DNA of 48,252 nt from the IMG/VR virus record IMGVR_UViG_3300037264_002810, positions 1-48,252 of that record. One strand, given 5' to 3'. Numbering within the stretch: the stretch's first letter is position 1; each line of letters begins with the position of its first letter. The DNA is from a virus. Positions 3,407 through 29,208 of this stretch are shown one piece after another. The notes beneath the pieces are model-generated. The model was not told the DNA's origin. It made no database searches and saw only the letters and a program-made list of their open reading frames with translations. A program made the position numbers and the translations under genes.

Positions 3407-4318
3407 TTATTCCTTTCCTTTTAGAAATTCTTCCCACATCTTTTTGGCCTTGGGAAGTATGAACTTTAACTGCTTATCTGACAATTCTATAACGCTCGAC
3501 TTGCCCATAATCTTTCTGCCATCACTGCCCGTGAAAGTTGAGAGGGATTCTACTGACAGTACTATGGCGACCTGTGCCTCCACGTCTCCACATTCGGTTA
3601 TTTCCGGGCCTTTTTCGCCGTAATCGAACACATAGCCTTCTCCGTGCATAGCAACCAGAAGATTGAAAAGTTCTCTTTGAACGCCTCTGTCAGGAGAAGG
3701 AAGAGGCTCTTTCTTTTCTTTGGTTTTGAATGTGTGTCCACCCATATTGCTTGTGCTCTTGCCAATTCCTATCTTTTCGAATTCCTCAACAGGAATGTTT
3801 CTCAGACCGAGCAGGGTCTTAATAGCCTCACCCCTCATCCGGTGGTAGGCGGCAGTCATAACGTTGGTTTCAGAAATATCTTCGACGAGTTTTAATTCGC
3901 CAGCTTCAACACCGAAGAAAGCCTCCCTTGTCGAATAAGCACCCTGAATAAATACTTCCCTGTCGCCGAGAGAAGCATTACCGGAATAGATATACCTGTA
4001 TCCCTTGCCCTTGTCGTCTTCAAAATCCACCTTTTCCCTTTTAACGTCCGTGATACTTATGGGGAAGTGGGCAGATATACGCTCTGCCCCTGCACTACTA
4101 AGACAGGCGTTCTTGCCTATTATTGCCCAGTCCTTTTCCCCGGTAAACGCGACAAGTATCTGGTTACGGAGTTGTTTTTCCTCGAGAGCAAGCTCAGCCT
4201 TTTCCCTCAGGGCTGTGATATAACTCCTTGTCGGAAGAGTTGATTTTATCTGAGCATCAATAGTCTCTATTGGAACGATTTCACCCCTTGTCTCAACATT
4301 ATCAATTTCCTTGTCCAT
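3407..4318 (-). CDS. Candidate single-strand annealing or recombination protein
   Basis: A 303-residue soluble protein. About residues 55-190 look like one globular domain, including DWAIIGKNACLSSAGAERI (about 64-82) and MRGEAIKTLLGLRNIPVEEF (about 161-180). A charged linker and a C-terminal domain follow. Phage annealing proteins of the RecT, Erf and Rad52-like groups are commonly encoded beside an exonuclease, and here a Cas4-like nuclease is two genes downstream. The family itself is not recognisable with certainty by eye, so the call rests mainly on context and general character. Confidence 0.5.
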   Translation of the reverse strand: MDKEIDNVETRGEIVPIETIDAQIKSTLPTRSYITALREKAELALEEKQLRNQILVAFTGEKDWAIIGKNACLSSAGAERISAHFPISITDVKREKVDFEDDKGKGYRYIYSGNASLGDREVFIQGAYSTREAFFGVEAGELKLVEDISETNVMTAAYHRMRGEAIKTLLGLRNIPVEEFEKIGIGKSTSNMGGHTFKTKEKKEPLPSPDRGVQRELFNLLVAMHGEGYVFDYGEKGPEITECGDVEAQVAIVLSVESLSTFTGSDGRKIMGKSSVIELSDKQLKFILPKAKKMWEEFLKGKE

Positions 4319-4320
4319 GC

Positions 4321-4524
4321 CTAATTTCCTTTCAATTCCATTTCGTCTGCTATTACTTCAATTCCTCTTTTAAGAGCCTTATTAGCGAACTCTCTAAAAG
4401 AACATCCATCCCCTGTTGTCTGAATGTACAAGCCAAAACACCTTGTTGACAAGGCGTCCACCTCACTTGTCAGGTGAAGCTGTCTCGTATTTCTGCGTTT
4501 TTGCTCTGTTACTTTCTTTGACAT
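4321..4524 (-). CDS. Small basic protein, possibly ribbon-helix-helix
   Basis: A 67-residue protein beginning with a basic stretch (KKVTEQKRRNTRQLHL) that could be a beta-strand, followed by helices ending in FREFANKALKRGIEVIADEM. This order recalls small ribbon-helix-helix regulators but is not diagnostic. The ribosome binding site AAAGGGA precedes the ATG. Confidence 0.65.
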   Translation of the reverse strand: MSKKVTEQKRRNTRQLHLTSEVDALSTRCFGLYIQTTGDGCSFREFANKALKRGIEVIADEMELKGN

Positions 4525-4535
4525 ACAATCCCTTT

Positions 4536-4886
4536 CTATTCTACAACTTTTAATGTTACACTTCCAAACACCAAATCCCTTTTCTTCTTGTCAGAGACGT
4601 TGCCATTAACAACAACTATGCTGTTGAGCAGGGCTTGAGAATACAGACTCTTGCCTTGTCTGTAATCACCCATCTTGGCATCGTTTTTCCATACCCGCGT
4701 GTAAATCTGCCCCCTTGTCAGGGAAACTCCGTACAAAGACAACAGTTTACTGGCTATTATATCGGCACTCAACCCCATTTTTGCCCAGTAAACACTCAAG
4801 GCGTTTATTGAGTTATCCCAAGCTATCCTTCCGTGTTCCAGACCTACCGTACTCTTATGGCTTCTTGTCTTTCTTGTCTTTAACAT
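4536..4886 (-). CDS. Putative helix-turn-helix DNA-binding protein
   Basis: About 116 residues from the ATG at 4886, chosen because AAAGGA lies nine bases upstream; an ATG two codons earlier sits too close to that site. A basic N-terminus (KTRKTRSHKS) precedes a segment, YWAKMGLSADIIASKLLSLY, that reads as a helix-turn-helix followed by a second helix. It may regulate the divergent early promoters, but no target site can be assigned. It overlaps the upstream gene by 32 bases. Confidence 0.6.
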   Translation of the reverse strand: MLKTRKTRSHKSTVGLEHGRIAWDNSINALSVYWAKMGLSADIIASKLLSLYGVSLTRGQIYTRVWKNDAKMGDYRQGKSLYSQALLNSIVVVNGNVSDKKKRDLVFGSVTLKVVE

Positions 4887-5040
4887 TGTCATCTTTCCTT
4901 TCAAAATTATCACAAACCATATTTTTCTCGCCCTTTATCCAAGCGGCGTTCCGTTCGCAAAAGATATGAGAATTGCAGTACCTACACTCTTCACAGCATT
5001 CCGCAGACCTATAAAAAGCCTTAATCAGATTAGCTTCCAT
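4855..5040 (-). CDS. Cys-rich small protein
   Basis: A 61-residue protein with Cys at about 15, 16, 19, 22, 28 and 43, including CCEECRYC, which suggests a small metal-binding knot, and a highly charged tail (KDKKDKKP). Function unknown. It overlaps neighbours on both sides (11 and 32 bases), in the tight leftward operon. Confidence 0.65.
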   Translation of the reverse strand: MEANLIKAFYRSAECCEECRYCNSHIFCERNAAWIKGEKNMVCDNFERKDDNVKDKKDKKP

Positions 5041-5374
5041 TCTGTATAAACCTCACTTGACCGAAGTTAATAGGTATTTCCAACAGACAGGGTACAAGAA
5101 TAGACTTTGTATCAGGCGTTATCACTTGCTTGCCCTTGTCCTTTTTGGTGTACTTACCGCTAAAGTGATAAGCACGTTTACTTTGCCCCAAACTTTTCTT
5201 TGATAGTAAATGGCGATATTCCTCTAAAGGACGGAGGTCATAGTCCACCCCTACTTTCGCCCCGTTATTCCCGTGCGTCCTTTTGTTGTGATTTCGAAGG
5301 CCTTGCTCTGTTAAACAGGCGAACTCGTCACAGTGAAGACAAACGCAAACCTCGTTGTAAACTTTTTTTGTCAT
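5030..5374 (-). CDS. C2H2-type zinc-finger protein
   Basis: A 114-residue protein and the first gene of the leftward arm. Residues 11-34 contain C-x2-C, then twelve residues, then H-x4-H (CLHC ... HNKRTH), the classical C2H2 finger spacing, including a Leu before the His pair. The rest is basic with no recognised domain. C2H2 fingers are uncommon in bacteria (Ros/MucR regulators) and phages. As the promoter-proximal gene it is a natural candidate for an early regulator or host take-over factor; that role is inference. Confidence 0.75.
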   Translation of the reverse strand: MTKKVYNEVCVCLHCDEFACLTEQGLRNHNKRTHGNNGAKVGVDYDLRPLEEYRHLLSKKSLGQSKRAYHFSGKYTKKDKGKQVITPDTKSILVPCLLEIPINFGQVRFIQNGS

Positions 5375-5448
5375 TTTTCCAACCTTTCAATTTTCCTTGT
5401 CTCGGTTTCCTTGTCTTTTATTAAAATTTCAAGCAGCCTATAAAATAT

Positions 5449-5477
5449 ATATTATATACATTCGCAACGGAAGTCAA
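5449..5477 (-). promoter_or_regulatory. Leftward early promoter
   Basis: On the minus strand TTGACT (5477-5472) is followed by TATAAT (5456-5451) with a 15-base spacer, or TAATAT with 17 bases. It lies in an AT-rich gap about 75 bases upstream of the first leftward gene and faces away from a second promoter only 35 bases further right, forming a divergent early control region. Confidence 0.6.
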
Positions 5478-5511
5478 GGAAAAAATAAAAAATAAAATAA
5501 ATAAAATTATC

Positions 5512-5538
5512 TTGACAACGCCGTATAATTTGTATAAT
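5512..5538 (+). promoter_or_regulatory. Rightward early promoter
   Basis: TTGACA (5512-5517) is followed by TATAAT at 5533-5538 after 15 bases; an earlier TATAAT at 5524 is too close. The spacing is shorter than the usual 17, as in the divergent partner. It is about 50 bases upstream of the first rightward gene. Confidence 0.65.
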
Positions 5539-5590
5539 CCGTATATCGTGTTGATTAACGTTTTTTAACATTTTTTTTAAGGGGTTTAGT

Positions 5591-5839
5591 ATGGATGGAA
5601 TAAGTTTAGTAGAGTCAAAATCGGTCAGTCGGCAGAAATACCTTTACAAGGGGGTAGCCTACGAAACAAACCTTGTGGGGCATAAAATCGCTATTTTGGC
5701 GGTCGAGGAAGATATTCTCGCGCCAACAAAAGAAGAGGCGGTTCAAATCGCTTCTATCAAAATGGCGGGCAAGCTCAAGACAACTATGGATGCAGACAAA
5801 ACCTTTATAGTTATTGCCCACAATATCCGGGCAGACTAA
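5591..5839 (+). CDS. Promoter-proximal small early protein, unknown function
   Basis: An 82-residue protein with no recognisable family. It alternates strands and helices: a strand-like IAILAVEEDILAPT, then a helix KEEAVQIASIKMAG, then another strand. It is preceded by AAGGGG. A strong intrinsic terminator begins eight bases after its stop, so unless transcripts read through, it is the only gene made from the rightward early promoter. That is typical of immediate-early products or of genes under antitermination control. Confidence 0.75.
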   Translation: MDGISLVESKSVSRQKYLYKGVAYETNLVGHKIAILAVEEDILAPTKEEAVQIASIKMAGKLKTTMDADKTFIVIAHNIRAD

Positions 5840-5846
5840 CCGAAGC

Positions 5847-5885
5847 GCCGGGGGTGGTCTAATCTATCCCCCGGCTGTTTTTTTT
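5847..5885 (+). terminator. Strong intrinsic terminator after the first rightward gene
   Basis: A perfect 8-bp GC stem, GCCGGGGG (5847-5854) with CCCCCGGC (5868-5875), a 13-base loop and a run of eight T. The T tract leads directly into GAGGGG, the ribosome binding site of the amidoligase gene. No promoter is apparent between it and that gene, which suggests regulated read-through. Confidence 0.85.
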
Positions 5886-5897
5886 GAGGGGAGTAAA

Positions 5898-7298
5898 ATG
5901 TCAGTTTACCGTCAGGTCGAATTAAAATCAGATTTAAAGCCCGAAGATATTTCAGGAAAGACAATTTCGGAAATACTGTTTTACCTTAAAGAAACAGAAG
6001 AGAACGCTTTTACTTGTTATCGGTGCGGAACGCTTTACAGTCGGACGATGGAACGCCGAATAATTACAAAAGACGAACCACTTCTTCCCTATCATATTCA
6101 AAGTATTTGCGACGCTTGTTTGGCTCATAACGTTCGGGAAAATTTTGCCCGGTCGGGAGTGAGGAAAGAAGTCTTTATCGAATGCGAGGTATGCAAAAAA
6201 TTTATCTTAATCGCTGGATTGTCTTACTACGAGAACGAAAGATTTAGGGATTATTTTATACGCCGGAGTAGTGATAGAATTGTTTATCTCGGCAGCACCG
6301 GCAAAGTGTCTTGTATTTGTAATGATTGTACAGAGCAGAGGATTAAAGAAATAGTCCCCTGCTCGAATTGTGGTAATGAAGGGGATGTTATACATAACGC
6401 AATCAGTCTAAAAAGAGGTGAAAAGATTTTCTTATGCTCCCGGTGCAATACGCCGGAACAACAATACCCGAAAGTAGAACACGTTATTTGCTCAAAGTTA
6501 ATGCCTTATTGTTACACGCCCGGAATATATTATCCCCGGAAATTAAGCACCGAACGCAATCCCCGCTTTTTCGGGGTCGAAATAGAGGTATCTTTTGACT
6601 TCGAACAAACCCGGCACGGATTATCGCTATTAAGTGATACAATATGGAATTTAATAAAATCCTCTCTCGATTATGACGGACAACCGTTTTTTTATTGCAA
6701 ATATGACGGCTCTTTAGGCAGTAGGGGAATTGAAGTTGTATCAATGCCTTTTTCGTGGTTGTGGTATAAAAAGAACCGGGGAATTTTTGATGCTGTATGG
6801 AACTTGAAAAAAATTGGCTACTCAGCAGACCATCGCCGGGAATGTGGCTTACATATTCACACTTCAAAAACAACAATTTCAAGCCTTACAGTTTACAAGT
6901 TGGGATGCTTTATTTTTAGAAATAAGAATTTTATCAATAAAATTTCTTCGCGCTTATCCGGGGGACTGAATAAATACTGTACCGATTTTCCGTCAGCAAA
7001 TTTAGGCAAGGGATTAAGTAACAGTAAATACGGGAAAACATACAGCAGCGACCATCATTTAGCATTGAGTACGTCAAAAAAAGATACAGTCGAACTAAGG
7101 ATATTTCAAGGGACGCTATCCCCGGTCATGTTCGAAGCAAATCTTGGCTTTTATAATGCCCTGATTGAATTTTGCGAAAATAGCCCTGTTCAGATATTCG
7201 CAAACCCCCGCAAAATGACGGGATTATTTAAAAAATTTGTCAAGGATAAAGCAGAGTATCAATGCCTAAACCATAAAATAAATTTCTTGAGCCTTTAG
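5898..7298 (+). CDS. Amidoligase (COOH-NH2 ligase) with N-terminal zinc ribbons
   Basis: A 466-residue protein from the ATG after GAGGGGAG. Residues 1-210 carry several Cys pairs (CYRC, CDAC, CEVC, CNDC, CSNC, CSRC), like a string of zinc ribbons. From about 220 an amidoligase domain appears: FGVEIEV (225-231), YDGSL then GIEVVS (about 274-287), CGLHIHTSK (about 315) and ELRIFQGTL (about 398). These match the glutamine-synthetase-like amidoligases described by Aravind and co-workers, which join carboxyl and amino groups using ATP. The next gene encodes a glutamine amidotransferase, a pairing reported for this class. Likely targets are peptide or protein side chains; the substrate here is unknown. 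Confidence 0.8.
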   Translation: MSVYRQVELKSDLKPEDISGKTISEILFYLKETEENAFTCYRCGTLYSRTMERRIITKDEPLLPYHIQSICDACLAHNVRENFARSGVRKEVFIECEVCKKFILIAGLSYYENERFRDYFIRRSSDRIVYLGSTGKVSCICNDCTEQRIKEIVPCSNCGNEGDVIHNAISLKRGEKIFLCSRCNTPEQQYPKVEHVICSKLMPYCYTPGIYYPRKLSTERNPRFFGVEIEVSFDFEQTRHGLSLLSDTIWNLIKSSLDYDGQPFFYCKYDGSLGSRGIEVVSMPFSWLWYKKNRGIFDAVWNLKKIGYSADHRRECGLHIHTSKTTISSLTVYKLGCFIFRNKNFINKISSRLSGGLNKYCTDFPSANLGKGLSNSKYGKTYSSDHHLALSTSKKDTVELRIFQGTLSPVMFEANLGFYNALIEFCENSPVQIFANPRKMTGLFKKFVKDKAEYQCLNHKINFLSL

Positions 7299-7312
7299 GG
7301 AGTGAGTGAGAA

Positions 7313-8089
7313 ATGTGCGTCATAATCTACAAGCCCGAAAATGAAAAAATAACGTATAAGAATCTTGAAAAATGCTTTACTCAAAACCCGGACGGTGCTG
7401 GCATAATGTTCCCGAACGCTGGCAAGGTTGTTATTGTCAAGGGTCTTATGTCGTGGAAAGAATTTAAAGATAAAATCGCCCGGCTCAATGCCGTTTACAA
7501 TTTTGAAGCCCGCCCGGTTGTGTACCACTTCAGAATAAAATCAGCCGGGGATAAAACAGCCGAAAACACTCACCCCTTTAGAATAAACAAAGAACTGGCT
7601 TATTGTCACAACGGGACTATTAACATCGAAACCAACAAAAAAGGCGAATCAGACACGTCAGCCTTTTGCCGGCTTGTCTTAAAACGCTTAGAACAAAATG
7701 TTTTTGAATCTCCAGCCGTCCGGTATCTTTTATCCGGGTGTTTGCGAACGGATAAAATGGTCTTTATGAATGGCCGGGGTGATATTTATATCGTTAATGA
7801 GAACTTGGGAACTAAACGCGGGGAGGTGTGGTTTTCGAATACCAGTTGGGAATACGAACGCCACAGCTACACTTGCACAACGCAGACTATTGGTATGATT
7901 TCCCGGCAAGGTAGATATGGGGAATACTGTTATTCTTGCGGCAGGTCTTTAGAAAGAGAAGAGTTAAAAATATACGAACACACTCCCTTTTGCTCTCAGT
8001 GTTATCAGCACCTAAATATCCCGGTGCTGAATTTAATATCTAAAATTGTCGAAGATTATTGGAAAACAAACTATGCAGAGTATTATTGA
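7313..8089 (+). CDS. Class II (Ntn-type) glutamine amidotransferase
   Basis: A 258-residue protein beginning MCVIIY, so Cys2 would become the N-terminal nucleophile. Further class II motifs are PDGAGI (about 28-33), HFR (about 71), THPF (about 86) and CHNGTI (about 98-103). A C-terminal zinc ribbon (CYSCG ... CSQC, about 206-233) is added. Such domains release ammonia from glutamine, or act as related N-terminal nucleophile hydrolases. It lies 14 bases after the amidoligase gene with a GGGAGTGAG ribosome binding site, so the two probably work together, either as ammonia donor and ligase or as maker and remover of an amide bond. Confidence 0.85.
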   Translation: MCVIIYKPENEKITYKNLEKCFTQNPDGAGIMFPNAGKVVIVKGLMSWKEFKDKIARLNAVYNFEARPVVYHFRIKSAGDKTAENTHPFRINKELAYCHNGTINIETNKKGESDTSAFCRLVLKRLEQNVFESPAVRYLLSGCLRTDKMVFMNGRGDIYIVNENLGTKRGEVWFSNTSWEYERHSYTCTTQTIGMISRQGRYGEYCYSCGRSLEREELKIYEHTPFCSQCYQHLNIPVLNLISKIVEDYWKTNYAEYY

Positions 8090-23486: not shown

Positions 23487-24731
23487 ATGAAAAAGATTTT
23501 GATGTTGCTCCATATGCCCGGCAGAGACAGCGGATTTGATTCAATGTTAGCTCACGAATTAAAGACGAGGGGCCATATGGTATGGCTAAAACAGTTCTTA
23601 ACTCTGGACAGACAATCAATCTGCATAATAAAACCGGATATTTTGTACGTACCGGAAATCAGAAATGAATACACCAGAGATATATGTAATCTCGTAAGGC
23701 AATGGGGAGCACAGGTAGTAATTAAATTGTGCGAATTTACAATAACAGAAGAATCAATACCTTTTATATCAGAAGAATACAAGAATGCTATTTTTGGGAA
23801 TATTAACTTTAACCCATCTTGCGACCTTGTATTAGGTTGGGGCAAGAAGAGCGTTGAACTTGTAAGAAAATACTGCCCCGTTAGTGCTGAAAAAGTTGTC
23901 CCTTGCGGGGGAATAGCTTTTGACCAGTATTTTACTCCTATCCCACCAATGGAACGAAAGCCAGAAAAGTCGATTATGTTTGCGACAGGTTTTGCTTACG
24001 CCGACAGAAGTCCTGTTTATTCGGTTCCAGAGGCCAAACACGGGGAAGCCATTCACCGTCAATTCGTCGAAAGCGATAGGACGGGCCGTTCGGAATGGAT
24101 AAAAATGATAAGGGCCTTTCTTGCGGACGAACGTTTCAAAGACTGGTTTATATATATCAAACCACACGCGGGAGAGAAGCAGCAGATTTATGATACTATT
24201 TTCAGGGAAAGAGTTGCCCATGTGTCACCAATAATGCCAGCTTTTGCAATACTGGAAACGGTCGATGTTCTTATCCATGCCGGTTCCACTATGGGATACG
24301 AAGCCCATTTAAGAAATAAACCAGCTTTTAATTATTTCAACAACTGTCAAGATAGAATTGTGGCTGCAATATCTCCGAATCATAATTGTACTTCCGATTT
24401 ATTTAATGCTATCGAAACTGTCGAACTCGGCAAAAGTAACGCCAACCCTGAAATAATTAAAAACATGGATGATAATTATTATGGCCCTGTTGATGGAAAG
24501 GCTTACATCAGGGCGGCCGATGCCATAGAGTTGTTGCCACCTTGTAATCCCAATATACCTGATGCTTGGCCGCCTATGACACAATTTAGGTATCCAGATA
24601 AAGATGTGTTACAGACTTGCCATCAGTGGAGGTGTGATGGATGTAACAATATTTATTACGTGACAGCCGAGCGGGAGATGGTAAAATGCCCATATTGCGG
24701 TATTGCTAACGTAAGAATAGTAGTAACCTAA
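23487..24731 (+). CDS. GT-B-like surface-glycan glycosyltransferase with C-terminal zinc ribbon
   Basis: A 414-residue protein. The N-terminus (KKILMLLHMPGRD) and a second Rossmann-like part with KPHAGEKQQIY (about 228) and HAGSTMGYEA (about 261-270) match the GT-B style of surface-carbohydrate biosynthesis proteins, where HxGST binds the sugar nucleotide. A zinc ribbon CDGC ... CPYC is added at about 384-407. As first gene of the cassette it is the best candidate for transferring the activated nonulosonic acid to an acceptor, perhaps a virion protein or cell-surface glycan. Donor and acceptor are inferred. Confidence 0.65.
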   Translation: MKKILMLLHMPGRDSGFDSMLAHELKTRGHMVWLKQFLTLDRQSICIIKPDILYVPEIRNEYTRDICNLVRQWGAQVVIKLCEFTITEESIPFISEEYKNAIFGNINFNPSCDLVLGWGKKSVELVRKYCPVSAEKVVPCGGIAFDQYFTPIPPMERKPEKSIMFATGFAYADRSPVYSVPEAKHGEAIHRQFVESDRTGRSEWIKMIRAFLADERFKDWFIYIKPHAGEKQQIYDTIFRERVAHVSPIMPAFAILETVDVLIHAGSTMGYEAHLRNKPAFNYFNNCQDRIVAAISPNHNCTSDLFNAIETVELGKSNANPEIIKNMDDNYYGPVDGKAYIRAADAIELLPPCNPNIPDAWPPMTQFRYPDKDVLQTCHQWRCDGCNNIYYVTAEREMVKCPYCGIANVRIVVT

Positions 24732-24753
24732 ACTTATTTTAAGGGGATGTAAA

Positions 24754-25902
24754 ATGAGAACAGCAAAAGAGTTAAGAAGGTGCGTCAAGTGCCTGATGGC
24801 CGAAACCAAACCCGGTATTATCTTTGATGAGGTGGGCGTATGTCAGGCCTGTCGTCATCACGAAGCGAGAGATTTAATCGACTGGGACTTACGGGAAGTC
24901 GAATTTGCCAGAATGCTCGATGCTCACAGAAGCAAGGCTGGCAACTACGACTGTATTATTCCCGTCAGCGGGGGCAAGGATAGCTACTTCCAGACGTGGC
25001 TATTGAAGCGAAAGTACAAAATGAACCCGCTTCTGGTAACTGTAAGCGACCCGTTTAGTCATACAGGCGAAGGCCATGAAAATCTCAGGAAGATGGCGAA
25101 GAATTTTGACTGCGATATTATCGGGATGCAGACGGCGGAAGATACAACGATAAAACTGATAAGGACGGCTTTCGAACAGTACGGCAGTCCGACATGGCCT
25201 ATTGATAGGGCAATCTACTGTTTTCCAGTAAATCTCGCCTCTCAACTCGGAATACCACTGGTTTTCTACGGAGAGAACGTGAGCTATGAATACGGCGGGG
25301 TACAAAACGAAGAATCTCCATCGGCTAAAAAACAAGTATTGAATACGGTCGCACTGGATGTTCTGCCGGAAATAACGGAGTGTGCCGGTGTTCCACGTGA
25401 AACATTGAATCAATACTTTTACAATCCGAGTGTCGCAGTCAATCCTCAATACCTCAGTTATTACTTTCCGTGGAGCGGCTCGAGAAACCTGCTCGTCGCA
25501 GAAGCCCATGGTTTTCAAGCACTCTGTTACTGGGATAGAAAAGGATATGTCGAAAACTACGACCAGATAGATTCTATCGGATACCTATTCAACGCATGGA
25601 TGAAATATCCAAAGTTCGGGTTCCAAAGAGTTACCGACGTCGTCGGATACTGGCTCCGGGATGGTTTGATTACCGTCGAAGAGGGTAAGAAGATGATTGA
25701 GGAAAAAGATTATCTTCTTGACGAACAGATTTATGAAGACTTCCTTCGGGTTACAGGCTATAAGGAACCGGAGTTTTGGAATATCGTTCGAAAACATCAA
25801 CGCTTTGAAATAGGAGACCAGCCATGCAAAAACAGAATGCTCTCTGTATCATCCCCGCACGAGGCGGTTCTAAGGGAATACCCGGGAAAAACCTCAGATT
25901 AG
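24754..25902 (+). CDS. N-acetyl sugar amidotransferase (PseA/WbuX family)
   Basis: A 382-residue protein. The N-terminal zinc site is CVKC ... CQAC (about 9-32), followed by the PP-loop SGGKDS (72-77) that binds ATP, and conserved GENVSYEYGG (about 173-182). This matches the N-acetyl sugar amidotransferase family, which turns an N-acetyl group into an acetamidino group. In Campylobacter, PseA acts in acetamidino-pseudaminic acid synthesis. Partners of WbuX-type enzymes (HisH/HisF-like) are absent, so ammonia must come from elsewhere, as with solo PseA. The end overlaps the CMP-sugar synthetase gene by 79 bases in another frame. Confidence 0.85.
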   Translation: MRTAKELRRCVKCLMAETKPGIIFDEVGVCQACRHHEARDLIDWDLREVEFARMLDAHRSKAGNYDCIIPVSGGKDSYFQTWLLKRKYKMNPLLVTVSDPFSHTGEGHENLRKMAKNFDCDIIGMQTAEDTTIKLIRTAFEQYGSPTWPIDRAIYCFPVNLASQLGIPLVFYGENVSYEYGGVQNEESPSAKKQVLNTVALDVLPEITECAGVPRETLNQYFYNPSVAVNPQYLSYYFPWSGSRNLLVAEAHGFQALCYWDRKGYVENYDQIDSIGYLFNAWMKYPKFGFQRVTDVVGYWLRDGLITVEEGKKMIEEKDYLLDEQIYEDFLRVTGYKEPEFWNIVRKHQRFEIGDQPCKNRMLSVSSPHEAVLREYPGKTSD

Positions 25903-26600
25903 TTGCGGGCAGGCCACTTATTTACTGGTGTATAAAGGCCGCTCTGGACTCCGGGGTATTTAGGGAGGTTGTCGTTTCGACCGATTCAATCGAGATAGGC
26001 GACTACGCCCAAGAGTGCGGGGCACTCGTTATGATAAGACCGTCAATGTTGGCAACTGATACGTCCCCGGTCAAACTTACCTACCAGCATATTCTCAAGG
26101 TCTTTGAAAAGGCTAACCCGGGCTTTGAGTATGTTCAACTTCTTCAACCGGTAACGCCGTTGATAGAGGCTGAACACATCCATACTGGATTTGACCTGCT
26201 TCTGGGAACAAAGGCCGACATAGTAGTAAGCGTCTGCCAGTCAACTGAGGGATTAGGGGTAAGTAAGACCCTGCCAGCCATGAGGTCGCTTCAAGGATTT
26301 TTGCCGAGGTCGTTTAGGAGTAAGCCGAGACAACTTCTTCCAAAACGATACCACTTAAACGACTGCATTTTTGTTGGCAAGACCCACGTATTCAGGGATG
26401 GACTGGATTTTTACAGTTCGGCGGTTAAGAGTTTTGCTTATATTATGCCTAAAGAGGTATCAGTCGATATTGACGATGAACACGATTTATTTATTGCCGA
26501 CGCATTATTAAGGAGAAAACATGGCGAAGCGTCAACACCATCCAGACAATCCTTTTGGCGAAGTATTCAGAATGTGTGGAAGAGGGGAAGACCGATATAA
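25824..26600 (+). CDS. CMP-nonulosonic acid synthetase (NeuA-like cytidylyltransferase)
   Basis: A 258-residue protein. The CTP-binding loop IIPARGGSKGIPGKNL lies at about 9-24; VVVSTDS (about 50), LLQPVTPL (about 109, for the usual LLQPTSPL) and SVDIDDEHDLFIA (about 220) are the other family motifs. It activates a sialic-acid-like sugar with CMP. The last 27 residues are encoded within the next gene and are basic. This specificity belongs to nonulosonic acids (neuraminic, legionaminic, pseudaminic); which one cannot be decided by eye. Confidence 0.85.
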   Translation: MQKQNALCIIPARGGSKGIPGKNLRLVAGRPLIYWCIKAALDSGVFREVVVSTDSIEIGDYAQECGALVMIRPSMLATDTSPVKLTYQHILKVFEKANPGFEYVQLLQPVTPLIEAEHIHTGFDLLLGTKADIVVSVCQSTEGLGVSKTLPAMRSLQGFLPRSFRSKPRQLLPKRYHLNDCIFVGKTHVFRDGLDFYSSAVKSFAYIMPKEVSVDIDDEHDLFIADALLRRKHGEASTPSRQSFWRSIQNVWKRGRPI

Positions 26601-27417
26601 GAAAAATCATCCCCTGCGATTTCCTCGCTGCATAGATATTGAACTGACGAATACCTGCAACTTTACCTGTAAGATGTGCCCGACCGGGCAACACGCTGTC
26701 AAGAGACCGCTTGGGTTTATGACGAAAGAAACCTATCGCGAAATTCTTAAACAGATAAAAGAATACAAAACTCCTATTCGATTTGTCAGGTTTGGCGAGC
26801 CGACTGTTCACGCTGACCTTGAGAAGTTTATCGTGATGGCGCATGAGCAATACTCGAAAGTTCACATCAATACTAATGGCTTTTATGTTCTTGAGGGTAT
26901 GATGAAGACTTTTCTCGACATTCATCTTGATAGTATAAAATTCTCGTTTCAGGGATGTAACTATAAGGAATACAATTTCTGGAGAAATAAGAACTTTTTT
27001 AATGACTTAATTTTTAATATCAGAACCTTTCACAGTATGAGGGAAAACGGTCAGTTCGAACTTCCATTCATTGTTATTGGAACCACGATAACAAGCGAAA
27101 CTGAAGAAGATGTGGCTATCTTTAAATCGAAGGTTGAGAAATACTGCGACCTCTTTCTCGTTGGCAAAACCGAGGATTTAACTGCCATTAGGTCGTCTCC
27201 CAAGGCCTGCCCGGAAGTATTCGACAAACTCAGCGTGAACTGGGATGGCACGGTTTCCGCCTGCTGTGGTGACTATGATAATAAAATGCTGGTCGGGGAC
27301 ATAAAAGAAGAAACGCTGCTGGATATATGGTTTGGGGCTAAACTGGCCTATTATCGTGAAATGATAGTTGGTAAACAGCACTCAGAACTCGAATTATGTA
27401 GGAGTTGCATAAGATGA
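26521..27417 (+). CDS. Radical SAM/SPASM domain protein
   Basis: A 298-residue protein. C46-x3-C50-x2-C53 (CNFTCKMC) is the radical SAM 4Fe-4S site, and FGEPTVH (about 97) is the usual glycine-rich follow-up. Near the end, CC at about 247 and CRSC at about 292 are reminiscent of a SPASM auxiliary cluster. AAGGAG precedes the start inside the synthetase gene. Similar proteins sit in surface-polysaccharide gene clusters; here the enzyme may modify the sugar or a peptide acceptor. Reaction unknown. Confidence 0.85.
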   Translation: MAKRQHHPDNPFGEVFRMCGRGEDRYKKNHPLRFPRCIDIELTNTCNFTCKMCPTGQHAVKRPLGFMTKETYREILKQIKEYKTPIRFVRFGEPTVHADLEKFIVMAHEQYSKVHINTNGFYVLEGMMKTFLDIHLDSIKFSFQGCNYKEYNFWRNKNFFNDLIFNIRTFHSMRENGQFELPFIVIGTTITSETEEDVAIFKSKVEKYCDLFLVGKTEDLTAIRSSPKACPEVFDKLSVNWDGTVSACCGDYDNKMLVGDIKEETLLDIWFGAKLAYYREMIVGKQHSELELCRSCIR

Positions 27418-27896
27418 GAGTAACATCTGAATTTGTGAAGGTTTACAATCATATCTTCAACTATATCCATTACAAATACGGGGCCGAGGCTTATGATGAT
27501 TTTCTGAAAGCTCTGGCCCCGGTAGTCCTGCACGACCTCGATGAGCTCGTTAAAAAAGAAGGTATAGCGGGGTGTTTGATATATTGGGGTTGCATTTGCC
27601 AAGACGAAGGAATCCCCCGCAATGTTCTTTTCAGCGGAGACATTATTGAATATACTTTTAAGAGATGTCCCAGCAGGGAAAGCCTGTCTAATGAAAATCG
27701 TTGCAATTACTGTCATCACTGCGAAGTGATATATTCAGAAATACTGGGCAAATATGGAATGGAATTCAAAATATTCCCGCCAATGGAGGAACCTGCGGTA
27801 TGCCAGTTCATAATAACTCAAAAGCCGTCCTCATTGGGTCAGGAGGACACGCAAAATCTATCAGGTCCGCCATCGTCGGAACAGACATCAAGATAG
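27414..27896 (+). CDS. Cys-containing protein of unknown function in the sugar cassette
   Basis: A 160-residue protein from the ATG overlapping the radical SAM stop (ATGA). Residues 1-55 are helical; the second half has CRYC-like pairs (RCNYCHHC, about 98-105) and an ending motif VCQFII. The pattern weakly recalls the L-2-amino-thiazoline-4-carboxylic acid hydrolase-like fold. Its last 97 bases also encode the start of the next gene in another frame. It may be a partner of the radical SAM protein. Confidence 0.6.
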   Translation: MRVTSEFVKVYNHIFNYIHYKYGAEAYDDFLKALAPVVLHDLDELVKKEGIAGCLIYWGCICQDEGIPRNVLFSGDIIEYTFKRCPSRESLSNENRCNYCHHCEVIYSEILGKYGMEFKIFPPMEEPAVCQFIITQKPSSLGQEDTQNLSGPPSSEQTSR

Positions 27897-28435
27897 GTCT
27901 TGTGATACCGGACAGTCGCAAGCTCACCTACGACGACTGGTTTAATCTTTTTTGGAAATATCGAAATTTTATTATCGGTGTAGGCCAGATATATGATTAC
28001 AGACCGAGAATGGAGATATTCAAACAGATTAAAAAGGGCCGCTGGAAGAATGTATTGACCGTTATTGCCAAAGATGCGTTTGTTGCGAATCCTCGTGCTA
28101 TTGAAGAAGGAACGGTAATAATGCACAATGCCGTCATCAACGCAGGAGCCTCAATCGGTCGAGCCTGTATAATCAATACAGCAGCAATAGTCGAACACGA
28201 CGCTTCGGTGGGCCAATACACTCACATTTCGACGGGAGCAGTTGTAAATGGCGACGCTTTAATAGGAAAGTTCTGTTTCGTTGGAAGTAATGCGGTTGTA
28301 TTAAACGGGATAAGAATCGGCGATAATGTGATGATAGGCGCTGGAAGCGTAGTGACTCACGACATACTTGAACCCGGTATTTACGTTGGCAATCCCGCAA
28401 AGTTTTTAAAGGAGATACCATGTCCGTCTATATAA
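27800..28435 (+). CDS. NeuD-like sugar O/N-acyltransferase
   Basis: About 211 residues from the ATG after GGAGG; upstream codons in this frame overlap the previous gene and do not fit the family. The N-terminus AVLIGSGGHAKSI (about 9-21) is the Rossmann start of the NeuD/PglD family. From about 95 on, hexapeptide repeats (VIMHNAVINAGASIGRACII and following) form the left-handed beta-helix, ending in IYVGNPAKFL. It would acetylate the nonulosonic acid or a precursor. Its stop overlaps the synthase start by 16 bases. Confidence 0.85.
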   Translation: MPVHNNSKAVLIGSGGHAKSIRSAIVGTDIKIGLVIPDSRKLTYDDWFNLFWKYRNFIIGVGQIYDYRPRMEIFKQIKKGRWKNVLTVIAKDAFVANPRAIEEGTVIMHNAVINAGASIGRACIINTAAIVEHDASVGQYTHISTGAVVNGDALIGKFCFVGSNAVVLNGIRIGDNVMIGAGSVVTHDILEPGIYVGNPAKFLKEIPCPSI

Positions 28436-29208
28436 TCGCAGAAGCAGGATGTAACCATATCGGCAAAATTGATTTTGCGGTCGAGATGATTCAGGAAGCC
28501 GCGCGCATAAAAGCTGACGCCATTAAGTTTCAGGCCTATATCACGGAAAAGATTAACGACCCTGCACTGCACGAAAGACTTGCCAAATGGCGTTTCGATA
28601 AAGAACAGTTCGCATTTTTAAAAAGAGAATGCGAGAACAACGGAATAGACTTTTTGTGTTCATCGTTCGATATTGAAAGTGCCAAGATGCTCGAATCGCT
28701 GGATATTATTGCTCACAAAGTTCCAGCCGGACAGGTTCATAATACTGAATACTTAAAATATATCGCCAGCACCCACAAACCAGTCTTCATGTCAACGGGA
28801 ATGTGTACTTTTAATGAGGTTGTAACTGCGGCCCGAATTTTAAAAAAGAGCAATCTCTATATAATGCACTGTACCACCGGGTATCCAATTCTCACTGTGT
28901 ATGCTAACCTGAACTGCATCAAGGAATATCAGCGGATGGGATATTTGACTGGTTTCTCTGACCATACGATGTCTGGCCGGGCGGCCATTGCCGCTGTTGC
29001 TTTGGGCGTGAAAGCCATTGAACACCATTACACCGTCAATCAGCTTGATACACCTGATATGCCAGCTTCGATAGATGTCAGTATGTTTAAACAATATATA
29101 CACCATATACGAGAGACAGAATGTATATTAGGAGACGGAGTAAAAAAGATTGAGGAATGTGAAAAAAAACATTTACACCGTAGAGATTATGATATAATCC
29201 AAACGTAG
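28420..29208 (+). CDS. Nonulosonic acid synthase (NeuB-like), lacking the SAF domain
   Basis: A 262-residue protein with the TIM-barrel motifs of NeuB/LegI/PseI: IIAEAGCNHIG (5-15), AIKFQAY (about 34-40), MSTGMCTFNEV (about 126), MHCTTGYPI (about 147), GFSDHTMSG (about 178-186) and AIEHHYT (about 201), where the SDH and EHH histidines correspond to metal ligands. It condenses phosphoenolpyruvate with an N-acetyl amino sugar. Family members are normally about 340 residues with a C-terminal antifreeze-like (SAF) domain that caps the active site of the dimer partner; here the protein stops after the barrel. Confidence 0.85.
   Translation: MSVYIIAEAGCNHIGKIDFAVEMIQEAARIKADAIKFQAYITEKINDPALHERLAKWRFDKEQFAFLKRECENNGIDFLCSSFDIESAKMLESLDIIAHKVPAGQVHNTEYLKYIASTHKPVFMSTGMCTFNEVVTAARILKKSNLYIMHCTTGYPILTVYANLNCIKEYQRMGYLTGFSDHTMSGRAAIAAVALGVKAIEHHYTVNQLDTPDMPASIDVSMFKQYIHHIRETECILGDGVKKIEECEKKHLHRRDYDIIQT

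Follow-up and report, generated by a model that had tools for sequence, protein, structure and literature searches.

A phage amidoligase and class II glutamine amidotransferase, both with zinc ribbons, as a probable amide-forming pair

An amidoligase paired with a glutamine amidotransferase (GATase) is a long-noted feature of phage genomes, and the locus described here raises the question of what such a pair does, and to which target, when both proteins carry zinc ribbons. The window, i.e. the whole stretch of 48,252 nt that was analysed (IMG/VR virus record IMGVR_UViG_3300037264_002810), holds one such pair, and we suggest that its two enzymes probably use ATP and glutamine to add amide bonds to some target. 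The features on which the argument draws are:

5843..5885, + strand: strong terminator-like hairpin and U run immediately before the ligase start codon (z -2.6 and -24 kcal/mol for the fold; consensus scan)
5898..7298, + strand: amidoligase (GS-fold carboxylate-amine ligase), 466 aa (PF12224 above cut-off; Foldseek YbdK, GS, PafA, Dop)
6015..6446, + strand: N-terminal zinc-ribbon array of the ligase, C40/43+C71/74, C96/99+C141/144, C155/158+C180/183 (from CxxC positions; knuckle pairing inferred)
6561..7181, + strand: ligase catalytic domain, residues ~222-428, with E228xE230, D270, E279, H319xH321, R352 and E399xR401 (alignment of relatives)
7313..8089, + strand: class II (Ntn) glutamine amidotransferase, 258 aa (PF13230 above cut-off; profile to GlmS E 4.5e-12; Foldseek GlmS, PurF, EgtC)
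7313..7849, + strand: Ntn domain with Cys2 nucleophile, H72xR74, H87PF, H99-N100-G101 and D114 (41 aligned relatives)
7928..8002, + strand: C-terminal zinc ribbon of the amidotransferase, C206/209 + C227/230 (CxxC positions)

Both ORFs were found where the preliminary description had placed them, 14 nt apart on the + strand; the ligase starts with ATG, with GAGGGGAG upstream. The central claim of that description, a glutamine synthetase (GS)-fold amidoligase beside an Ntn amidotransferase with zinc ribbons on both, is borne out by profiles, predicted folds and CxxC positions. The HMM searches it had proposed gave PF12224 (Amidoligase_2) at 22.6 bits against a cut-off of 22 (E 1e-4) for the ligase and PF13230 (GATase_4) at 30.7 bits against a cut-off of 23 (E 2e-7) for the amidotransferase, and the catalytic residues are present in the alignments.

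The ligase further matched the PHROG 'amidoligase enzyme' (E 6e-9), and 45 of the 46 aligned ligase members match Amidoligase_2 at E 0.01. Its catalytic residues are invariant or nearly so in these 46 relatives, and all eight that were tested are retained in 82/86 clusters. The acidic and His motifs (ExE, E, HxH, ExR) are present in the window ligase, where we take them to have the metal- and ATP-site roles that they have in GS. AlphaFold models were built on alignments of the window and locus proteins; for the ligase the ribbon region was weak and the core had a pLDDT mostly about 90. Foldseek matched this model to YbdK (E 6e-5) and GS (3e-4) with low TM-scores (0.35/0.45), to plant GCL, and to PafA and Dop, which were among its few significant structural matches. 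A search of solved structures by ligase sequence returned zinc-finger-like noise only; the GS-like fold is one predicted by the model.

For the amidotransferase the catalytic residues of the Ntn domain are likewise invariant or nearly so (41 aligned relatives), and all eight tested residues are retained in 75/86 clusters. Gaps at the N-terminal Cys account for 11 of the 13 missing cells and look like alignment failures, several of these proteins plainly beginning MC. The profile search aligned the H-R-THG, HP and HNG motifs with those of GlmS (E 4.5e-12), and only GlmS/PurF-type chains appeared; R74 and HNG thereby have counterparts in GlmS, and D114 is conserved in the relatives. The best PDB matches of the model (pLDDT 87) were GlmS, GFAT, PurF and EgtC by Foldseek, with GlmS closer than EgtC. 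The protein, with Cys2 following Met, is a predicted glutaminase of the class II fold.

The ligase has six CxxC motifs, starting at residues 40, 71, 96, 141, 155 and 180, which is enough for three ribbons and compares with a mean of 0.8 and a maximum of 4 in 2000 shuffles. The amidotransferase has two, starting at residues 206 and 227 and making one ribbon; as 2.9% of shuffles reach at least two, this ribbon rests mainly on its recurrence at the same place in relatives. Across the clusters at least two CxxC were found on the ligase in 83/86 and on the amidotransferase in 41/86, with 460 of 486 ligase motifs preceding the catalytic domain and 117 of 125 amidotransferase motifs following the Ntn domain. 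Ribbons are on both proteins in 39/86 clusters and on the ligase without any on the amidotransferase in 44/86, so ribbons on both are not required. It should be noted that the 86 clusters are not independent; among them ribbon presence on the two proteins showed no significant association (Fisher's test), and ribbon counts a weak rank correlation (rho 0.33). On the ligase tree the amidotransferase ribbon changes about 8 times, at least 5 of these on well-supported branches, and far fewer times than shuffled labels do; ribbons are therefore gained and lost while the enzymes persist. That the arrays recruit a target shared by both proteins is plausible.

To follow the pair beyond the window we ran four scans of viral contigs and of bacterial and archaeal genomes, with one genome per prokaryote species. 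When a window protein was used by itself to scan viral contigs, no relatives came up; the scans were seeded with small alignments, the wide alignment A3 being too divergent as a seed. The amidotransferase-seeded and ligase-seeded viral scans each contributed their 80 best-ranked loci, which are not a random sample, and together with phage records and the window (counted twice) make up 167 records. Both genes were present in 159 of these, close on one strand in 158, with the ligase first in 156. Among the 80 best-ranked loci of the bacterial and archaeal scan the genes were adjacent in 78 and the ligase first in 77; a further viral scan, the third, shares loci with the first two and gave 72 and 69 among its 78 best-ranked loci. 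The exceptions include contig ends (e.g. L118, L138), and loci with a solo gene are few (L107, L047, L019). The last of these carries four tandem amidotransferase-like ORFs (3923-7172) in a locus without amidoligase.

Ligase and amidotransferase distance matrices are correlated (r 0.47, against at most 0.16 in permutations), as is expected of any two co-inherited neighbours. None of 16 other window genes, immediate neighbours included, has a relative in the fetched loci, and the two genes therefore form a unit. Recurrent third genes in viral loci are replication genes or ATP-grasp, the ATP-grasp of LUZ24/RIO-1-type cassettes being found in 15/86 clusters and absent from the window. Fused ligase–GATase ORFs were searched for and not found. 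Judged from gene order, the near-invariant pairing is strong evidence that the two proteins would act together.

In Clostridia the pair can sit outside obvious prophage genes (genome loci L167-L246). A short serine recombinase (~185 aa) was seen in 35 of the 80 best-ranked genome loci, nearly all clostridial and mostly just downstream (e.g. L201 8075-8632, L233 8831-9319, L186 3156-3713). Some genomes hold several copies of the pair, Butyricicoccus pullicaecorum at least five. A pair with ribbons on both proteins also occurs on a contig labelled Lokiarchaeota (L167 5713-7743), which could be an archaeal virus or mis-binning.

The pair type itself is already known in phages, and the window holds a two-gene variant of it with ribbons on both proteins. 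Amidoligase–GATase pairs are reported in LUZ24-like phages, Pseudoalteromonas PSA-HP1, RIO-1 and OM43 phages, and some of the reports suggest cell-wall modification against superinfection, citing Iyer et al. 2009 (PMC10580990, PMC5498523, PMC3890496, PMC3517423). The published precedent to which the preliminary description appealed thus exists, as Iyer 2009 is cited in PMC10580990 and others. Further, phiEco32 is among the phages with an amidoligase/GATase 'peptidoglycan modification cassette', where the modification of peptidoglycan is a suggestion only (PMC5498523, PMC3890496). In phiEco32, RIO-1, LUZ24-like phages and PSA-HP1 this cassette likewise combines an amidoligase and a glutamine amidotransferase, among non-structural genes, and the UFV-P2 amidoligase belongs to PF12224 like the window ligase. 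The RIO-1/LUZ24-type cassette adds an ATP-grasp ligase, a second ligase and sometimes a gamma-glutamylcyclotransferase, whereas the window has the pair only, with ribbons on both proteins: searches for PF14395 (COOH-NH2 ligase), for ATP-grasp homologues and for a gamma-glutamylcyclotransferase / GGACT domain all found nothing in the window, an IMG/VR record that may be incomplete. Judging by title and abstract, none of the papers found on phage amidoligases and zinc ribbons is evidently about the ribbons of such pairs, and the literature examined gave no experimental target or product of amidoligase–GATase pairs.

Close relatives among sequenced phages are few, namely MEP401, MEP402 and ctgrD200, with StenR_269 more distant; each has both genes nearby. 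MEP401 and MEP402 (Zobellviridae on OM43 bacteria; PMC10580990) and ctgrD200 have the same two genes in the same order, overlapping or nearly so, and Cys knuckles precede the ligase domain as in the window. Their ligases are only 20-28% identical to the window ligase, and their GATases, unlike that of the window, have no CxxC ribbon. In relatives such as MEP401/402 the pair adjoins primase, helicase and polymerase. The preliminary description had also put the window pair in an early phage block, and early expression is at most a possibility here: the pair stands at the head of a series of rightward genes that leads on to those for terminase, capsid and tail. It diverges from genes on its left that point the other way, a Cas4-type exonuclease among them. 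The hairpin at 5843-5885 sits between an 82-aa ORF (5591-5839) and the ligase start codon; given this hairpin, a possible attenuator, the pair may be expressed only by readthrough or from a promoter of its own. PADLOC gave no credible defence match and Rfam no match in the window.

From these data we infer which way the reaction runs, that the enzymes are coupled, what the ribbons do and what is modified. With a probability of about one half, the pair is a split glutamine-dependent amide synthetase steered by its ribbons to an envelope precursor or a protein. The Ntn enzyme, its Cys2 freed by removal of Met, would hydrolyse the gamma-amide of glutamine, and ammonia, or less likely another amine, would be handed to the GS-fold ligase, a transfer that the folds suggest. 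The ligase would phosphorylate a carboxylate of the target with ATP-Mg and then make the amide, and the ribbons, N-terminal on the ligase and C-terminal on the amidotransferase, may tether the proteins to the target or to one another. As targets, a cytoplasmic envelope precursor (e.g. a muropeptide carboxylate, compare MurT/GatD-type amidation in hosts) or a host protein would be likeliest. MurT/GatD, a Mur ligase and a class I GATase, is likewise a two-gene system for glutamine-dependent carboxylate amidation; its folds are unrelated to those of the window pair, and the likeness holds if this explanation does. Within the structural-gene region of the window lies a surface-sugar block (23487-29208, +) of glycosyltransferase-like, PseF-like CMP-sugar transferase, radical SAM/SPASM, NeuD-type acetyltransferase, NeuB and WbuX N-acetyl sugar amidotransferase genes (the last TIGR03573, E 1e-86). 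The block fits surface remodelling and is no proof of an envelope target for the pair.

We favour the split synthetase because both enzymes retain their catalytic residues over very wide divergence, because the genes are nearly always adjacent with the ligase first and their distance matrices correlate, because no other tested window gene recurs in the loci, because the amidotransferase best matches the glutaminase domains of GlmS and PurF, the ammonia feeders of synthetases, and because the ligase model matches carboxylate-amine ligases. Against it, the modelled amidotransferase is also a good match to EgtC, a gamma-glutamyl hydrolase, and the two proteins were not found fused. GS-fold enzymes can also take free ammonia without a glutaminase. 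The main rival, which we hold possible but unlikely, is a gamma-glutamyl ligase and hydrolase, where the gamma-carboxyl of glutamate would be joined to an amine and the Ntn enzyme would later remove or transfer the glutamyl group, as in EgtA/EgtC of ergothioneine synthesis and, by analogy, PuuA/PuuD. EgtA is a GS-superfamily ligase and EgtC a class II Ntn enzyme, here without ribbons, unlike the window pair, and the Foldseek matches of the ligase to glutamate-cysteine-ligase-type enzymes (YbdK, plant GCL) point the same way as that of the Ntn protein to EgtC. The Arg and Asp by which glutaminases hold the glutamyl group should be present in gamma-glutamyl hydrolases alike, and since glutamine and gamma-glutamyl groups are bound by the same residues, the pair may yet be of this kind. 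Published phage cassettes do include a gamma-glutamylcyclotransferase (PMC5498523; PMC10945688), but the window has no such domain match, and GlmS is nearer than EgtC in structure and, with PurF, the only type of chain in the profile search.

The presence of PafA and Dop among the ligase matches, along with ribbon arrays as typical macromolecule-binding modules, would suit Pup-ligase-type tagging, with isopeptide bonds made on ribbon-chosen proteins and trimmed or removed by the Ntn protein; we consider this improbable, as the Ntn protein resembles glutaminases and not isopeptidases, and no small partner gene recurs among linked ORFs of at least 60 aa in the fetched loci. Hosts commonly have their own GS and GOGAT, and enzymes that act on free metabolites would hardly each need a ribbon array. 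Both points make it very improbable that these are auxiliary nitrogen-metabolism genes aiding host ammonia assimilation during infection. Such a role was put forward in eLife for Phage-ZRK32 (PMC10945688), where genes for an amidoligase and a glutamine amidotransferase occur along with a glutathione synthase-like gene and one for a gamma-glutamylcyclotransferase. Further, we speculate, as a rather doubtful idea, that the pair could be a portable weapon or shield that modifies macromolecules outside wall cassettes, its fast-changing ribbon arrays steering amidation or tagging to one particular protein of a host or competitor, and that its carriers are phages and, in Clostridia, chromosomal cassettes with the short serine recombinase.

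With just two genes, the form that bears ribbons is the smallest of these systems and recurs in phages, in Clostridia and on the Lokiarchaeota-labelled contig, and so offers a tractable way to learn what such enzymes modify during infection; its ribbon arrays could serve as bait to pull down the target.
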